Positions 146 to 20,498 of a DNA stretch of 20,498 nucleotides are shown here, in pieces. The notes under the pieces are model-generated. The model was not told where the DNA came from. It saw only the letters and a program-made list of their open reading frames with translations, and made no database searches. This stretch comes from a virus. How positions within the stretch are numbered: position 1 is the first letter of the stretch; every line of letters begins with the position of its first letter. Where the stretch lies: positions 1-20,498 of the IMG/VR virus record IMGVR_UViG_3300029957_000312; one strand, written 5' to 3'. The translations under genes were made by a program, and so were the position numbers.

Positions 146-508
146 TCAAGCTTCGGCGGCGTCGAGGAGGGAGAGCTGCTTGGGCATGCGCAGCTCGCGC
201 TGCATCTTAATGATGCGATAAACGGTCTGGACGGACATGGCATACTTGCTGGCCAGCTCCGGAGCATTGACACCGTTGAACTCCCGATAGAGCTTGTCGT
301 TGCGCTCGCTACGGCGGCCCACCATGTCCATGGGCACGTAGATGTTCTGGCCGCCCCAGTCGTCGGCCACGCGACCGGCGGCCTCCATGGCGAAGTGACG
401 GGCCTTGGCCTCGGAGACGCCGAATGTGGCCATGGCCTGGATGGCGAGCTTGTCAGCCAGGTCCAACAGCAGCTCGGTGCCGAGTTGGCGCGGGGTGTCC
501 TGGGTCAT
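146..508 (-). CDS. mor: Mor/C-family transcription activator of late genes
   Basis: This 120-aa protein matches the Mor/C family of Mu-like phages, dimeric DNA-binding activators that turn on middle or late promoters. The family features visible are a helical N-terminal part, the dimer beta-strand segment GGQNIYVP (residues 52-59), and a C-terminal helix-turn-helix at about 82-102 (FNGVNAPELASKYAMS then VYRIIK). The start at 508 is chosen over an upstream ATG because GGGAGGT lies just upstream and because it overlaps the GemA stop as ATGA, suggesting translational coupling. It is the last gene of the leftward early operon. Only one family member is seen, so it probably does the work of both Mor and C, and the dyads at 11679 and 19491 are its likely targets. 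Confidence 0.92.
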   Translation of the reverse strand: MTQDTPRQLGTELLLDLADKLAIQAMATFGVSEAKARHFAMEAAGRVADDWGGQNIYVPMDMVGRRSERNDKLYREFNGVNAPELASKYAMSVQTVYRIIKMQRELRMPKQLSLLDAAEA

Positions 509-963
509 AGCGTACCTCCCAATCTGGTGACCCACCGCTTGAGGCTCTCAATGACCCGCGCGGCCTGGTAGGTGTTGAGCCACTCCAGGCGCTCCACCTT
601 GGTCTGCCTGTGCACGAAGCTGGCCAGGGCCGCCTCGCTGCTGTCCTTGATCGCGCCCATGTCGCGCAGGGTGAGCCAGAGGCTGCGGATCAGCCGGGAC
701 TGCGGATCGTTCGCCGGCTTGGCCGTGGCCGTGACCTTGGCCTTGCGCGCGGGCAGCTCCTCAAAGCCGCGGCTGCGCAGATGGTCCAACACGGCCTCCA
801 GCTGGCTCATGCTCATGCCCTTGCACGAGTCCTTGCCCGTGATCCGGAGCAGCATGGCGCGGTAGGTAGAGTCATCCATATCCGGCAGTTGGCCCTTGGC
901 CACATGGATGAGCTGCACGAGCTTGCCCTTGTAGGGCGCGAGGTTACGAGCTGGCTGCGCCAT
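505..963 (-). CDS. gemA: GemA / gp16 family regulatory protein
   Basis: A 152-aa protein of the Mu gp16 (GemA) family, early phage proteins reported in Mu to affect host gene expression and DNA supercoiling. It has the family N-terminus (YKGKLVQLIHVAKGQLPDMDDSTYRAML, residues 11-37, including the GMS..QLE segment just after) and the C-terminal half with SRLIRSLWLTLRDMGAI (about 89-105) and the FVHRQT..ERLEWL stretch. The start at 963 has GGAGGT just upstream. A longer open frame exists, but its upstream part reads as a shadow of the ASCH gene. Its first 20 bases overlap the end of that gene, and its TGA overlaps the mor ATG. This gemA-mor order is the same as in Mu. Confidence 0.9.
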   Translation of the reverse strand: MAQPARNLAPYKGKLVQLIHVAKGQLPDMDDSTYRAMLLRITGKDSCKGMSMSQLEAVLDHLRSRGFEELPARKAKVTATAKPANDPQSRLIRSLWLTLRDMGAIKDSSEAALASFVHRQTKVERLEWLNTYQAARVIESLKRWVTRLGGTL

Positions 964-11678: not shown

Positions 11679-11718
11679 TAACGCCCATTACAAGACCCGT
11701 CCTGCCCGCGCTTCTAGT
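11679..11718 (+). promoter_or_regulatory. Late promoter upstream of lysis genes (Plys-like)
   Basis: TAACGCCCATTA (11679-11690) is an imperfect dyad, followed by the shared TTACAAGACCCGTCC (11688-11702), and TCTAGT (11713-11718) at -10 position. The same TAACGC-N3-TTACAAGACCCGTCC arrangement and an aligned T-N-T-A at the same offset occur before the protease gene. There is no good -35, as expected for an activator-dependent promoter; the dyad centre is about -40. It drives the lysis/head block, with a leader of about 120 bases. The activator is probably Mor; that is inference. Confidence 0.72.
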
Positions 11719-11776
11719 GTCGGGCCTCGTGGAGCGCGTCCATCGCGGCGCGCGCAAGGCTCTCTCCTTCGCCCCG

Positions 11777-11815
11777 CCCCGCCGTTGTCCGGGACGGTCC
11801 CGGCCAGCGGCGGGG
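11777..11815 (+). promoter_or_regulatory. Long hairpin in the late leader
   Basis: CCCCGCCG (11777-11784) pairs with CGGCGGGG (11808-11815); TTG with CAG inside that (one wobble), then a T-C mismatch, then CCGGGA (11789-11794), loop CGG, TCCCGG (11798-11803). That is close to 18 paired positions. No T run follows, so it is not an intrinsic terminator, and the holin gene starts 30 bases on, after GGAGG. An mRNA-stability element, a translation-timing structure or a protein-binding dyad are options. It shares CCGGGAC with the iterons at 68-103. Confidence 0.6.
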
Positions 11816-11845
11816 CACAGGGGAGAGGCAAATCCGGAGGCCCTC

Positions 11846-12217
11846 ATGGATCGCATCAAAGCCCTTTTCACCTGGCTGCGCACGCATGCCCCGCGCATGA
11901 CGCTGCCCAACCTCATCTCCACCTGCCTTGTGCTCGTCGTGGTCAGCGTGGCCCCGCACCAGGCTCCTGTGCTGACCTACAAGCTGGCCCTGATCCTGCT
12001 GGCCGCCTGCGCCTGCTACATGCTGGACGTGAGTCTGTTCTACTATGCCAAGCCCAGCGGCTATCTGGCCCAGCCCTGGCGGGATGACATCAGCTTCAAG
12101 CCCTCGCAGGCTGACTTCGGCGTGGCCGCGGGCTGCCAGGCGCTGTTCATCGCCGCCTGCGCGCGCCGGTGTCTCATCGTCTGCGCGGGCATGTTGGCCG
12201 TGGCCTTGGCGCTCTAG
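11846..12217 (+). CDS. Putative holin
   Basis: A 123-aa membrane protein with hydrophobic stretches at about 21-36, 44-62 and 92-123 (the last may be two short segments). It stands first in the late block, directly before the lytic enzyme, the usual place of a holin, which forms the membrane lesion that starts lysis. I do not recognise a particular holin family. The start at 11846 has GGAGG seven bases upstream; the frame extends upstream through the leader hairpin but that part is non-coding in style. A short charged loop lies around 72-90. Confidence 0.68.
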   Translation: MDRIKALFTWLRTHAPRMTLPNLISTCLVLVVVSVAPHQAPVLTYKLALILLAACACYMLDVSLFYYAKPSGYLAQPWRDDISFKPSQADFGVAAGCQALFIAACARRCLIVCAGMLAVALAL

Positions 12218-16436: not shown

Positions 16437-17829
16437 ACGCAAACACAATGGCGGCAGCAAGCAATTCCGGGACGGCTTCAGCAACATCACGGCGCAGCTG
16501 GGCCTGGACCAGCAGAATCCGCTGGCCGGGGGCATGTACACGCTCACGTCGCTGGTGACGCGCGAGCGCACCGAGTTGGAGGCCGCCTACCGCGGCTCCT
16601 GGGTCGTGGGCCGCATGGTCGACGTGGTGGCCGAGGACATGCTGCGCGGCGGGCTGGACATCCAGGCCCAGCTGCAGGCCGGCGAGGTGGACAAGCTCCT
16701 CAAGCACATGCGCCGCACGGGCGTGCCGGGCCGGCTGAGCAGCGCCATCAAGTGGGCGCGGCTCTATGGCGGCAGCTTGGCCGTGATCCTCATCGACGGC
16801 GAGGACGCCGCCTCCCCGCTCGACGTCTCGACCATCCGCAAGGGCGGCTTCCGGGGACTCCACGTGTTGGACCGCTACCAGGTGGTCCCCTCGGAAGAGA
16901 AGATCGACGAGCTGGGGCCCATGCTCGGCTACCCGCAGCACTACCGCGTGAACGTCGAGAACGACCAGGTCGGGATCGACCTTCACTACAGCCGCGTCAT
17001 CCGCTTCATCGGTGTGGAGCTGCCCTACCAGCAGCGCATCTCCGAGCAGGGCTGGGGCTCCTCCGTGGTGGAGCGCGCCTATGACCGCATTCTGGCCCTG
17101 GACAGCTCCACGCATGGCGCGGCCAACATGATGCTGCGCAGCTATCTGCGGGTGCTGGGCATCAAGAACCTGCGTGATATTCTGGCCGCCGGTGGGCCTG
17201 CGGAAAAGGCCCTGATCAAGATGTTCCAGATGATCAAGACCATGCAGACCAGCGAAGGCTTGACCATTCTGGACGCCGAGGACCAGTTCAACACCCACAA
17301 CTGGAGCTTTGCCGGAGTCTACGACGCTTTGCAGGCCTTCGCGGAACAGATCGCCGGGGCCACGGGCATTCCGCTGGTGCGCCTGCTCGGCCAGTCGCCC
17401 AAGGGCTTCTCCACCGGCGAGAGCGATCTGCGGACCTACTACGACACCATCGCCACCCAGCAAGATGACGACCTGCGGCCGGCCTATGAAACGCTGTTGC
17501 CGATCCTGAGCCGGAGCCTCTGGGGCCAGCCCCTGCCCGAAGGGTGGAACTTCGAGTTCCGCAGCCTCTGGCAGCCGAGCGAAACCGACAAGGCGACCAT
17601 CGCCACGGGCGATGCGCAGTCCGTGGCCGGCCTGCACCAGGCTGGCATTATCACCGAGTCCCAGGCCCTGGCCGAGCTGCGCGATTCCGGTCGCGTCACC
17701 GGCCGGTGGACGGCCATCACGGACGAGGACATCAAGCGCTCCGAGGCGGCCGAGGCCGCGCCGCCGGTGCCCGAGCTGCCGCCTCCTGGCCAGGACGATC
17801 CCGCCCGGCCCGGAGGCCCGGCGCAATGA
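16429..17829 (+). CDS. Portal protein, DUF1073 type
   Basis: A 466-aa portal protein, a dodecameric ring at one head vertex through which DNA passes. The DUF1073 pattern is visible: AYRGSWVVGRMVDVVAEDMLR (about 54-74), WARLYGGSLAVILIDGED, FRGLHVLDRYQVVP, IHYSRVIRFIGVELP-like segment, and GIPLVRLLGQSPKGFSTGESDLRTYYD. The C-terminal part is Pro/Ala-rich. Some databases name this group after an Acb1-like anti-CBASS fusion, but this protein has no such extra domain I can see. The start at 16429 has GGGAGA upstream. Its TGA overlaps the next ATG. Confidence 0.9.
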   Translation: MARRKHNGGSKQFRDGFSNITAQLGLDQQNPLAGGMYTLTSLVTRERTELEAAYRGSWVVGRMVDVVAEDMLRGGLDIQAQLQAGEVDKLLKHMRRTGVPGRLSSAIKWARLYGGSLAVILIDGEDAASPLDVSTIRKGGFRGLHVLDRYQVVPSEEKIDELGPMLGYPQHYRVNVENDQVGIDLHYSRVIRFIGVELPYQQRISEQGWGSSVVERAYDRILALDSSTHGAANMMLRSYLRVLGIKNLRDILAAGGPAEKALIKMFQMIKTMQTSEGLTILDAEDQFNTHNWSFAGVYDALQAFAEQIAGATGIPLVRLLGQSPKGFSTGESDLRTYYDTIATQQDDDLRPAYETLLPILSRSLWGQPLPEGWNFEFRSLWQPSETDKATIATGDAQSVAGLHQAGIITESQALAELRDSGRVTGRWTAITDEDIKRSEAAEAAPPVPELPPPGQDDPARPGGPAQ

Positions 17830-19076
17830 CCACGCCGCCGGCCGCGAAGCCCTGGCGCAAGCCCTGGGCCTGGGCCGACGTGAGCGCGGCCAAGCAGGGG
17901 CGTCAGCTCTTCCGGCCATCCCGCGCGGCGGAGAAGGCCTACGCCGAACAGCTCAAGAGCGTGGCCCGCAACGTGGCCAAGGTGCTCGCCAAGGCCCCCA
18001 GCCCGGAGCACGCGCAGCGTCAGCTCGCCGCCTATTCCGAGGCCCTGGAGCCCTGGGCGCGCCAGGCGGCCACGAACATGGTGCGCAAGGTCGCCGTCAA
18101 GAACGACGCCAGCTGGCGCGAGGCCGCCGAACGCTGGGGCATCGGCCTGCGCGGCATGCTCGACGCGGACGTGAGCCAGACGATGCAGGACCGCATCGAC
18201 GCCAACGTCCTGCTCATCAAGTCCCTGCCGGGCGAGGCGGCCATGCGCGTGGGCGAGCTGGCCCAGGAGGCCGTGCTCTCCGGCACGCGGTCCGAGGACC
18301 TGGCGGCCAAGATCCAGGCCCAGGGCGACGTGACCCACAGCCGGGCCAAGACCATCGCGCAGACCGAGGTGAGCAAGGCCAGCACGGCGCTGACAAGCGC
18401 CAGGGCCCAGGCCGTGGGCAGCGAGGGCTACATCTGGCGCACCGCGCGCGACGGCAAGACTAGACCCAGCCACGCGGCCATGGAGGGCAAGTTCGTTCGC
18501 TGGGACAGCCCGCCAACGCTCGACGGCATGACCGGCCACGCCGGCGAGTTCCCAAATTGCCGCTGCTACCCCGAGCCCGTGGTCTCCGATTCCGCCGGCG
18601 AGGCCGTCCAGAGCCCGATCCCCACGCGGGAGGACGAGGAGAAGAGCGGCGAGCACAAGCTGCGCAGCCAGTGGGAGCGCCAGGCGGTCAGCATGGTGGT
18701 GCCGTTCGAGCCGCACAAGCCCATGCCCAACGCGGAGCGCGCGTTCATCCCGGAGGGCAAGCTGGAGACCTATGTGCTCGACCCGGCGCACAAGAAGGGC
18801 GGCCCCAAGGCCAGGGTCATGAACTCCGCCCTCGGGCTCACCAAGCGCGACGCCGATCTCCTGGCGCGGCAGCTCCTGGCGCAGCTTCCCGGCACGCCGG
18901 CGATGCGGCACGCGACGCGCCCCATCACCGAGCACGGCGAGACCTTCAGCGTGGTCATGCCCGTCACGGGCACGAACGGGCAGGTCTTGCCAGTGCGGTC
19001 GAACTGGATATATGACACGATTAATGGCGCACGAAGCACTCGTCCGAGGCTCGTGACCGCCTGGGTGGACATATGA
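17826..19076 (+). CDS. MuF head protein with C-terminal toxin-like DUF6883 domain
   Basis: A 416-aa protein. Residues about 1-250 are a minor head protein of Mu F/SPP1 gp7 type: helical part, SRAKTIAQTEVSKA (172-185), then YIWRTARDGKTRPSHAAMEGK-type motif (about 202-222) and FPNCRCYPEP (242-251). After a charged linker (252-300), residues about 300-416 match what I recall as DUF6883: IPEGKLETYVLDPAHKKGG with K312, Y316, L318, P320, H322, then KAR, LGLTKRDADLL, and a final beta part with SNWIYD and RPRLVTAWVDI. MuF proteins with C-terminal toxin domains are known in temperate phages. The start (ATGA overlap) has GGAGG upstream. GC falls near the 3' end. Confidence 0.88.
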   Translation: MTTPPAAKPWRKPWAWADVSAAKQGRQLFRPSRAAEKAYAEQLKSVARNVAKVLAKAPSPEHAQRQLAAYSEALEPWARQAATNMVRKVAVKNDASWREAAERWGIGLRGMLDADVSQTMQDRIDANVLLIKSLPGEAAMRVGELAQEAVLSGTRSEDLAAKIQAQGDVTHSRAKTIAQTEVSKASTALTSARAQAVGSEGYIWRTARDGKTRPSHAAMEGKFVRWDSPPTLDGMTGHAGEFPNCRCYPEPVVSDSAGEAVQSPIPTREDEEKSGEHKLRSQWERQAVSMVVPFEPHKPMPNAERAFIPEGKLETYVLDPAHKKGGPKARVMNSALGLTKRDADLLARQLLAQLPGTPAMRHATRPITEHGETFSVVMPVTGTNGQVLPVRSNWIYDTINGARSTRPRLVTAWVDI

Positions 19077-19490: not shown

Positions 19491-19530
19491 TAACGCGGGT
19501 TACAAGACCCGTCCCGAGCGCCCCTGTATC
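19491..19530 (+). promoter_or_regulatory. Late promoter upstream of the protease gene (PI-like)
   Basis: TAACGCGGGTTA (19491-19502) is a perfect TAAC-N4-GTTA dyad, overlapping the shared TTACAAGACCCGTCC (19500-19514), with TGTATC (19525-19530) at the -10 place. It repeats the arrangement at 11679, with all elements at the same distance. Transcription would begin around 19537, two or three bases before the ATG at 19540. In Mu, the late promoter PI lies before the protease gene I, matching this position. Activation by Mor is inference. Confidence 0.72.
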
Positions 19531-19536
19531 CAGGGG
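19521..19536 (+). other. Hairpin over the start region of the protease gene
   Basis: CCCCTG (19521-19526), loop TATC, CAGGGG (19531-19536) is a perfect 6-bp stem ending 3 bases before the ATG. It covers the only Shine-Dalgarno-like AGGGG and the presumed -10. On transcripts reading through from upstream, it could hide the ribosome site; on transcripts from the local promoter it would be mostly absent. Confidence 0.45.
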
Positions 19537-19539
19537 CCC

Positions 19540-20498
19540 ATGCGCTACCAGATCGCTTCCCAACTCTCCGAGCATATCGCCGAGACGCCCGAGGGCTATC
19601 TGCTCTGCCTCGGCGTGCCTGTCGCACGCACGGGCGAGCTTGAGTACGCCCCGGATGTGGTGCCCATTGAGGCGCGCGGAGACGGCCCGGTTCTCATCAT
19701 GCGTGAGCCGGAGGATGTGTTCGCCCCCGAGGCCATCGCCTCGTTCGAGGGCAAACCGACAACCGTCGACCATCCTGAAGAGGACGTGACCCCCAAGAAC
19801 TGGTCTGAGCTGGCCGTTGGCCATGCGCAGAACCTGCGCCGCGGGGAGGGAGTCCAAGCCGACCTGCTGCTTGCCGATCTGCTCATCTCCGACAAGGAGG
19901 CCATCGACCTGGTCCGCGGGGGCCTGCGCGAGATCTCGTGCGGGTACGACGCGGACTACGAAGAGGAAGCGCCCGGCAGGGGCAGGCAGCGGAACATCCG
20001 GGGCAACCACATCGCCCTGGTTCGCCGGGGCCGTTGTGGTCCGCGCTGCAAGATCAACGACAACCGCGAGGACAACATGAAGAAACCCAGTTTCAAGGAC
20101 CAGCTCGCCGCGTTCAAAAAGAGCCTCCTCAAGGCCGTGGACGGCCTTTCCGAGGAAGGGCCGGACAAGAAGCCCGAAGGGGAAGGCAAAAAGCCCGAGG
20201 AGGGCCAGGAGGCCGCGCCCGTCAAGGATGACGCCACCGAGGAGCGCCTGGCCGCCCTGGAATCCAAGATGGAGGAGATCAGCATCGCGCTGCGCCAGCT
20301 CGCCGGCTCCGAAGGAAGCGAGACGTCGCAGGACGGGGAAGACCCCGACGGCGAAGAGGGAGCCGGAACCTCCGACGAGGAGCAGGATCCGGAGCAGCCC
20401 ACCGGCGACGGAGAAAAGCCGTGCGGCAAGACCGGCGACGGCGTCCGCGCCAAGGCCCGCGACGCCCGCGCCCGCACCGTGGACGCGGACACCAAGGC
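19540..20498 (+). CDS. Prohead protease/scaffold, DUF2213 type (3' end outside window)
   Basis: The open frame runs from the ATG at 19540 through the window end, 319 codons so far. It matches DUF2213: IAETPEGYLLCLGVPVARTG (about 13-32), FEGKPTTVDHP with H78, SELAVGHAQNLRRGEG, VQADLLLADLLISD, LREISCGYDADY with S133, and GNHIALVRRGRCGPRCKI (155-172). H78 and S133 are likely catalytic residues as in prohead proteases. From about 180 on it is charged, acidic and low complexity, as a scaffold would be. ATG at 20077 (M180) has GAGGA 4 bases upstream, so a shorter scaffold protein may start there. No stop before the edge. No good ribosome site for the main start. Confidence 0.88.
   Translation, partial: MRYQIASQLSEHIAETPEGYLLCLGVPVARTGELEYAPDVVPIEARGDGPVLIMREPEDVFAPEAIASFEGKPTTVDHPEEDVTPKNWSELAVGHAQNLRRGEGVQADLLLADLLISDKEAIDLVRGGLREISCGYDADYEEEAPGRGRQRNIRGNHIALVRRGRCGPRCKINDNREDNMKKPSFKDQLAAFKKSLLKAVDGLSEEGPDKKPEGEGKKPEEGQEAAPVKDDATEERLAALESKMEEISIALRQLAGSEGSETSQDGEDPDGEEGAGTSDEEQDPEQPTGDGEKPCGKTGDGVRAKARDARARTVDADTK

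Follow-up and report, generated by a model that had tools for sequence, protein, structure and literature searches.

The last gene of the virus record analyzed here very probably encodes two head proteins, a protease and a scaffold, in a single reading frame. It belongs to the DUF2213 family, and the scaffold would be made from a second start codon, the ATG at 20077, inside the protease gene. We favor this nested protease/scaffold reading because the inner start, the predicted fold, the helical tail, the gene order and a protein fragment seen in Pseudomonas phage Pa193 all agree.

The window, meaning the whole stretch analyzed, is a 20,498-base record of a Mu-like phage. Its Mu-like traits are genes for an integrase-core protein, an AAA ATPase, a Mor activator and a Gp27-type small terminase; a holin and a transglycosylase are also encoded (Pfam), followed by the large terminase, the portal and Mu F-like head genes (Pfam and PHROGs). 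The protease-scaffold gene comes last. The record stops at 20498 inside this gene, and the end of the scaffold lies beyond it. The features of the gene are as follows.

19540 to 20496, plus strand: DUF2213 protease-scaffold gene (open reading frame, Pfam, PHROGs), open at the record end
19582 to 20061, plus strand: DUF2213 (prohead protease) domain, residues 15-174 (Pfam, AlphaFold model, structural match)
20068 to 20072, plus strand: GAGGA, Shine-Dalgarno (SD) sequence of the putative inner start, read from the sequence; anti-SD duplex of -5.9 kcal/mol
20077 to 20079, plus strand: putative inner start codon ATG, codon 180 of the outer frame, conserved in the family
20077 to 20496, plus strand: putative nested scaffold coding part (alignment and model of the relative L012), open at the record end; charged and predicted helical in complete relatives

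The outer protein matches PF09979 (DUF2213) with an E-value of 4e-47 and 160.6 bits, above the gathering cut-off of 22. It has six PHROGs matches, the best two without a function and the other four annotated as head maturation protease. At an E-value of 0.001, DUF2213 is the only Pfam family found in the protein, with no match to a Mu I-type or S49 (lambda C-type) protease family. NCBIfam holds no family for the protease part or the scaffold part, and Rfam gave no match around the gene.

Selection on an inner start in DUF2213 genes

The preliminary description of this DNA had placed a nested scaffold start at the ATG at 20077, after GAGGA and a 4-base gap, where the conserved DUF2213 part gives way to a charged part. 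On re-reading the sequence, this layout is exact. CAAC (20073-20076) fills the gap, the ATG is in frame with the outer gene ((20077-19540)/3 = 179), and it lies five codons past the end of the domain, where the charged part starts. Taken alone, the window is not significant: anti-SD pairing is equal or better in 65% of synonymous shuffles of the seven codons before the ATG (p = 0.65), and most synonymous ways of writing the R-E-D residues encoded there contain an SD-like string. This result favors a reading in which the methionine and the purines before it belong to the protein sequence of a charged linker, whose Glu, Lys and Gly codons resemble an SD, or arise by chance, with no initiation. 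Whether the inner start goes beyond chance is decided not by the window but by counts across the family.

DUF2213 loci were drawn from IMG/VR, GTDB genomes and named phages. A search of 50,697 phage records found relatives of the domain in 808 of them; one is Escherichia phage haarsle, with E. coli K-12 MG1655 given as its host. Scans of genome contigs with a single protein gave no match, but an alignment-based scan of the contigs did recover DUF2213 loci. Before counting, we left out L007 (truncated), L020 and L038 (copies of L002 and L003) and L163 (the same locus as L092); L170-L173, near-copies of one another, are counted within the 167 loci and collapse at 70% identity. Our strict rule called for an in-frame ATG preceded by AGGA, GGAG or GAGG at a gap of 3-12 nt, at most 30 codons from the domain end. 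By this rule 149 of the 167 loci have an ATG with an SD, 8 more have a GTG with the SD kept (L064, L065, L081, L084 and L170-L173), and 10 have neither. Among 66 loci with less than 70% mutual identity, the numbers are 58 ATG and one GTG. In an earlier set of representatives, also below 70% identity, ATG and SD were present in 54 of 59, compared to 92 of 2405 random anchors (3.8%) in the same genes. Close relatives at 66-78% identity (L012-L019 and L092) all carry an in-frame ATG with an SD-like 4-mer (9/9). Thus, the conservation of the inner ATG and its SD, which the preliminary description had proposed to check by alignment, extends from these relatives to nearly the whole family.

Acidic linkers do raise the background: with the protein kept, synonymous shuffles alone produce an SD before the first ATG in 22.2 of 57 genes. 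The observed number, however, is 52 of 57, and the other in-frame ATGs show no excess (34 of 375 observed, 40.8 expected). This test scores the first ATG; in L073, L141 and L144 the SD-led ATG is another. The linker peptides also vary between lineages (REDN, KEDQG, KEIA, IGDS and others). The inner start falls anywhere from 1 to 27 codons past the domain, and the SD moves along with it. Among representatives below 60% identity, the SD occupies codon phase 0, 2 and 1 in 12, 10 and 4 cases, respectively, with a gap to the ATG that is always 4-11 nt.

Synonymous change is reduced at the same place. Across 44 pairs of loci, codons for the same residue differ at 21 of 180 positions in the five codons upstream of the inner start and at 820 of 2861 further upstream, a 2.5-fold reduction in the zone (Fisher 8e-8). 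Before other shared ATGs in these pairs, they differ at 75 of 290, so the reduction is confined to the inner start. The trough spans about codon -8 to codon +7. Given an SD that keeps its distance to the ATG while peptide and codon phase change, we regard the linker or chance explanation as extremely improbable. At the level of sequence, these comparisons show that the inner start has been selected as a ribosome start across DUF2213 genes.

The strength of the site is in the range of known nested starts. Scored alike, anti-SD pairing is -5.9 kcal/mol in the window, -7.6 on average in the representatives, -7.4 for Mu Z and -6.9 for lambda nu3. The preliminary description had likened the layout to Mu (I and Z) and lambda (C and Nu3), and the comparison is apt: the Mu and lambda records annotate Z within I and nu3 within C, and the SD energies are similar. 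In 45 of 56 representatives the inner SD pairs more strongly than the best candidate for the outer start, which fits an excess of scaffold.

A few loci depart from the pattern. L149 (Erwinia phage Mauresque) is without any inner-start candidate, L143 and L148 have weak candidates, and L061, L128 and L158 carry GGGA- or GGGG-type sites. In L167, DUF2213 is part of a 625-residue protein of another architecture, without an inner start. L166 is a further case of other architecture, with the domain in a 648-residue frame and an inner start present.

In one clade the gene is split in two at the place of the inner start (L140, which is Agathobaculum phage AB434P3, L155 and L160). The protease stop codon lies within or beside TAAGGAGG at the junction, and a second gene, for a charged protein of 212-226 residues, begins 13-14 nt after it. 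In the fused relatives L156-L159 the inner ATG is preceded by AAAGGA or AAAGGG; where the gene stop falls within the record (L156, L158 and L159), a decoration-type gene follows directly. The split-gene scaffold shows modest homology to the fused tails (hhalign E 2e-7, probability 94; phmmer matches mostly reflect composition bias); gene order supports it. In this clade, the inner start is thus where a natural division of the gene has occurred.

The split form could also mean that SD and ATG in the fused genes survive as a relic of an ancestor with two genes. Ribosomes can be slowed by SD-like strings, and the site might likewise serve as a pause for protease folding, in either case with no translation start. 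A relic would decay over such divergence, however, with domain identity down to 27%, and pausing needs no start codon at 4-11 nt. We therefore consider relic or pausing highly improbable, and return to the nested protease/scaffold reading.

Predicted protease fold, putative scaffold tail and related systems

An AlphaFold model of the domain, built for the window with 62 relatives, has a pLDDT of 96.6. Its best structural match in VIA-align is T4 gp21 (Z 11.5, rmsd 2.6 over 129 residues), followed by the herpesvirus assemblins of pseudorabies virus (PrV; Z 8.7) and varicella-zoster virus (Z 8.6). Foldseek alone found no significant match to the model in the PDB (best E 0.26), so the assignment draws on the VIA-align match. 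On this basis, we predict for the DUF2213 domain the fold of T4 gp21 and the herpes assemblins. H78, S133 and H157 are among the residues invariant in 82 DUF2213 sequences, a pattern suggestive of the Ser-His-His set that PMC4498786 (available part) gives for assemblins.

In the model of the complete relative L012, the inner methionine is residue 180 and sits in a low-confidence linker (178-187), with helices from 189 to 413. The C-terminal part is charged and helical in complete relatives, by alignment and by the L012 model; the window copy is cut off. The tail terminates in a recurring INKxN..FW motif in the alignment. Searched against the PDB, profiles of the scaffold part found no solved scaffold, only unrelated coiled coils and similar structures. 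For the nested start of the preliminary description, the predicted prohead-protease fold with a helical rest adds to the support from conservation, from fewer synonymous changes upstream and from gene fission at the same place.

We propose the following course of events. Translation from 19540 would give the full protein, a predicted serine protease with the gp21/assemblin fold joined to a scaffold tail, while translation from the SD-led ATG at 20077 would give the scaffold alone, presumably as the more abundant product. Together with less of the protease-scaffold, the scaffold would assemble with the capsid protein through the C-terminal part common to both, and the shared tail would thereby bring the protease into the prohead. 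There, the protease would probably cut the scaffold and itself, making DNA entry possible.

The best structural match also provides an alternative for the short product. T4 gene 21 has a second start, at Met45, and its short product, gp21s, is essential according to the available part of PMC9026906. The DUF2213 inner start might similarly be used for an accessory form that is not the main scaffold. In T4, the scaffold is a separate protein, gp22 (same source), and the inner start of gp21 releases no scaffold. In DUF2213 genes, however, the inner start falls exactly between protease and tail and keeps the tail complete, the annotation of nearby genes names no other scaffold, and the split form encodes the tail separately. 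We therefore consider a merely accessory short product very unlikely, and keep to the reading in which the short product is the scaffold.

Evidence on the tail comes from virions of Pseudomonas phage Pa193, a Pbunavirus. The DUF2213 profile matches its gp24 (PDB 9B40) with an E-value of 1e-10, making gp24, like the window protein, a DUF2213 relative, and its tail is bound at the vertices. Residues 286-326 of gp24 were built as a helix-turn-helix inside the five-fold vertices and called a putative scaffold (PMC11042391, available part). In that part of the paper, the word protease is absent and no nested start is described, so gp24 differs from the window protein in being presented as a putative scaffold without mention of a protease. 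In phage PB1, related to Pa193, the matching motif EMSGE lies at 288 and the inner methionine at 182; because the motif is downstream of the methionine, the fragment seen in Pa193 would belong to the inner product.

Nested genes of this kind are already known from Mu I/Z, lambda C/nu3 and herpesvirus UL26/UL26.5. The Mu record annotates an SD-led in-frame inner ATG of the protease gene that yields the scaffold, as we propose here, but the window protein matches only DUF2213 in Pfam and no Mu I-type family. In the lambda record, the nested scaffold shares its C-terminal end with the protease gene, and the next genes encode decoration (D) and capsid (E) proteins, as in DUF2213 relatives. Lambda C, however, is annotated as an S49-family peptidase, unlike the gp21/assemblin fold predicted for DUF2213. 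UL26/UL26.5 likewise combines protease and scaffold in one frame, with a nested gene for the scaffold alone, and the Ser-His-His triad of the assemblins may have a counterpart in the invariant H78, S133 and H157. The herpesvirus inner product has its own transcript, according to the title of a reference in PMC4498786, whereas for the window gene we propose an SD within the same message (other herpesvirus features from the available part of PMC4498786).

A nested start in DUF2213 genes appears to be undescribed as far as we found: no description turned up in the available parts of papers that name DUF2213 with phage, or among titles and abstracts from literature searches in which subscription journals are sparsely covered. 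A putative inner Val start has been noted in the Mu-like phage PaMx73 (PMC4378225, available part). None of 19 named phage records annotates a nested inner gene. In 14 of the 19, one of the next three genes downstream is annotated as a capsid gene and none is named as a separate scaffold; in the other 5 the genes there are hypothetical. This gene order comes from the named relatives, since the window ends before the decoration and capsid genes. Further upstream, the Mu F-like head protein at 17544-19076 carries a C-terminal DUF6883 domain (Pfam), which may be a cargo or toxin-like module that travels inside the head.

If the nested reading is true, it would identify the scaffold of many phages that have none annotated and correct databases that show one protein where two exist. 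It would add one more case of protease and scaffold in one frame, here with a predicted herpesvirus-type protease fold. The report of an "essential domain" in BCAM1066 (PMC8770471, available part) would be recast as concerning a likely prophage head protease.

A putative late promoter upstream of the protease-scaffold gene

Four further features lie outside the gene.

19491 to 19509, plus strand: promoter-like dyad TAAC-N4-GTTA-CAAGACC before the protease-scaffold gene, likely a late promoter
11679 to 11697, plus strand: the dyad again, ahead of the holin and lysis genes, likely a late promoter
149 to 535, minus strand: Mor/C-type late transcription activator (Pfam Mor, E 1e-26)
19520 to 19537, plus strand: inverted repeat GCCCCTG-TATC-CAGGGGC just before the outer ATG

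The window dyad, TAACGCGGGTTACAAGACC, lies 31-49 nt upstream of the outer ATG. A -10-like TATCCA (19527-19532) follows 21 nt past TTACAA and 7 nt before that ATG. The window contains two matches to the dyad, with 0.18 expected. The dyad or a variant is present in nine Desulfovibrio-type leaders (the window, L012-L015, L017-L019 and L092), with the GTTA-type half 39-40 nt before the ATG in eight of them. Three relatives also have a second copy, 7.4-7.5 kb upstream of the protease-scaffold gene; counting the window, four phages carry the dyad both ahead of this gene and ahead of the holin. The holin- and transglycosylase-like genes beside the second copy were named by reading translations in the relatives and by Pfam in the window.

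Mu late promoters stand before lys and I. The dyad pair is likely a Mor/C-type late promoter pair like that of Mu, judging from sequence and position, and the Mor/C-type activator is a candidate for its reader. The predicted transcription start at the protease gene coincides with the outer ATG: if transcription starts 6-7 nt past the hexamer, the protease message would be leaderless. With considerable doubt, we put forward a broader idea. Head proteases with the assemblin fold, in tailed phages and herpesviruses alike, would share the nested gene from far back and have retained it because it fixes the ratio of the two products and brings the protease into the prohead. In the Mu-like clade, the ratio would be set by a late promoter starting at the protease ATG, leaderless and SD-less, against a good scaffold SD.

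The form TAAC-N4-GTTA-nAAGA with a TA-rich hexamer 21 nt on is found at 19491-19539 and 11679-11720 of the window and in L012-L015, L017-L019, L092, L183, L184 and L188. An inverted repeat with changing arms around the TA-rich hexamer, ending 0-2 nt before the outer ATG, recurs in L013, L014, L015, L017 and L079. We considered this hairpin as an RNA control element and rejected it. The promoter fits better because the spacing of dyad, hexamer and ATG is constant and second copies stand before lysis genes. The hairpin was more stable than in mononucleotide shuffles (p below 0.05) for only 4 of the 11 leaders.

Beside the second dyad copy, the holin frame (11717-11860) is open upstream of its SD-led ATG at 11846 as far as GTG codons, and a longer holin form starting from these codons is possible.
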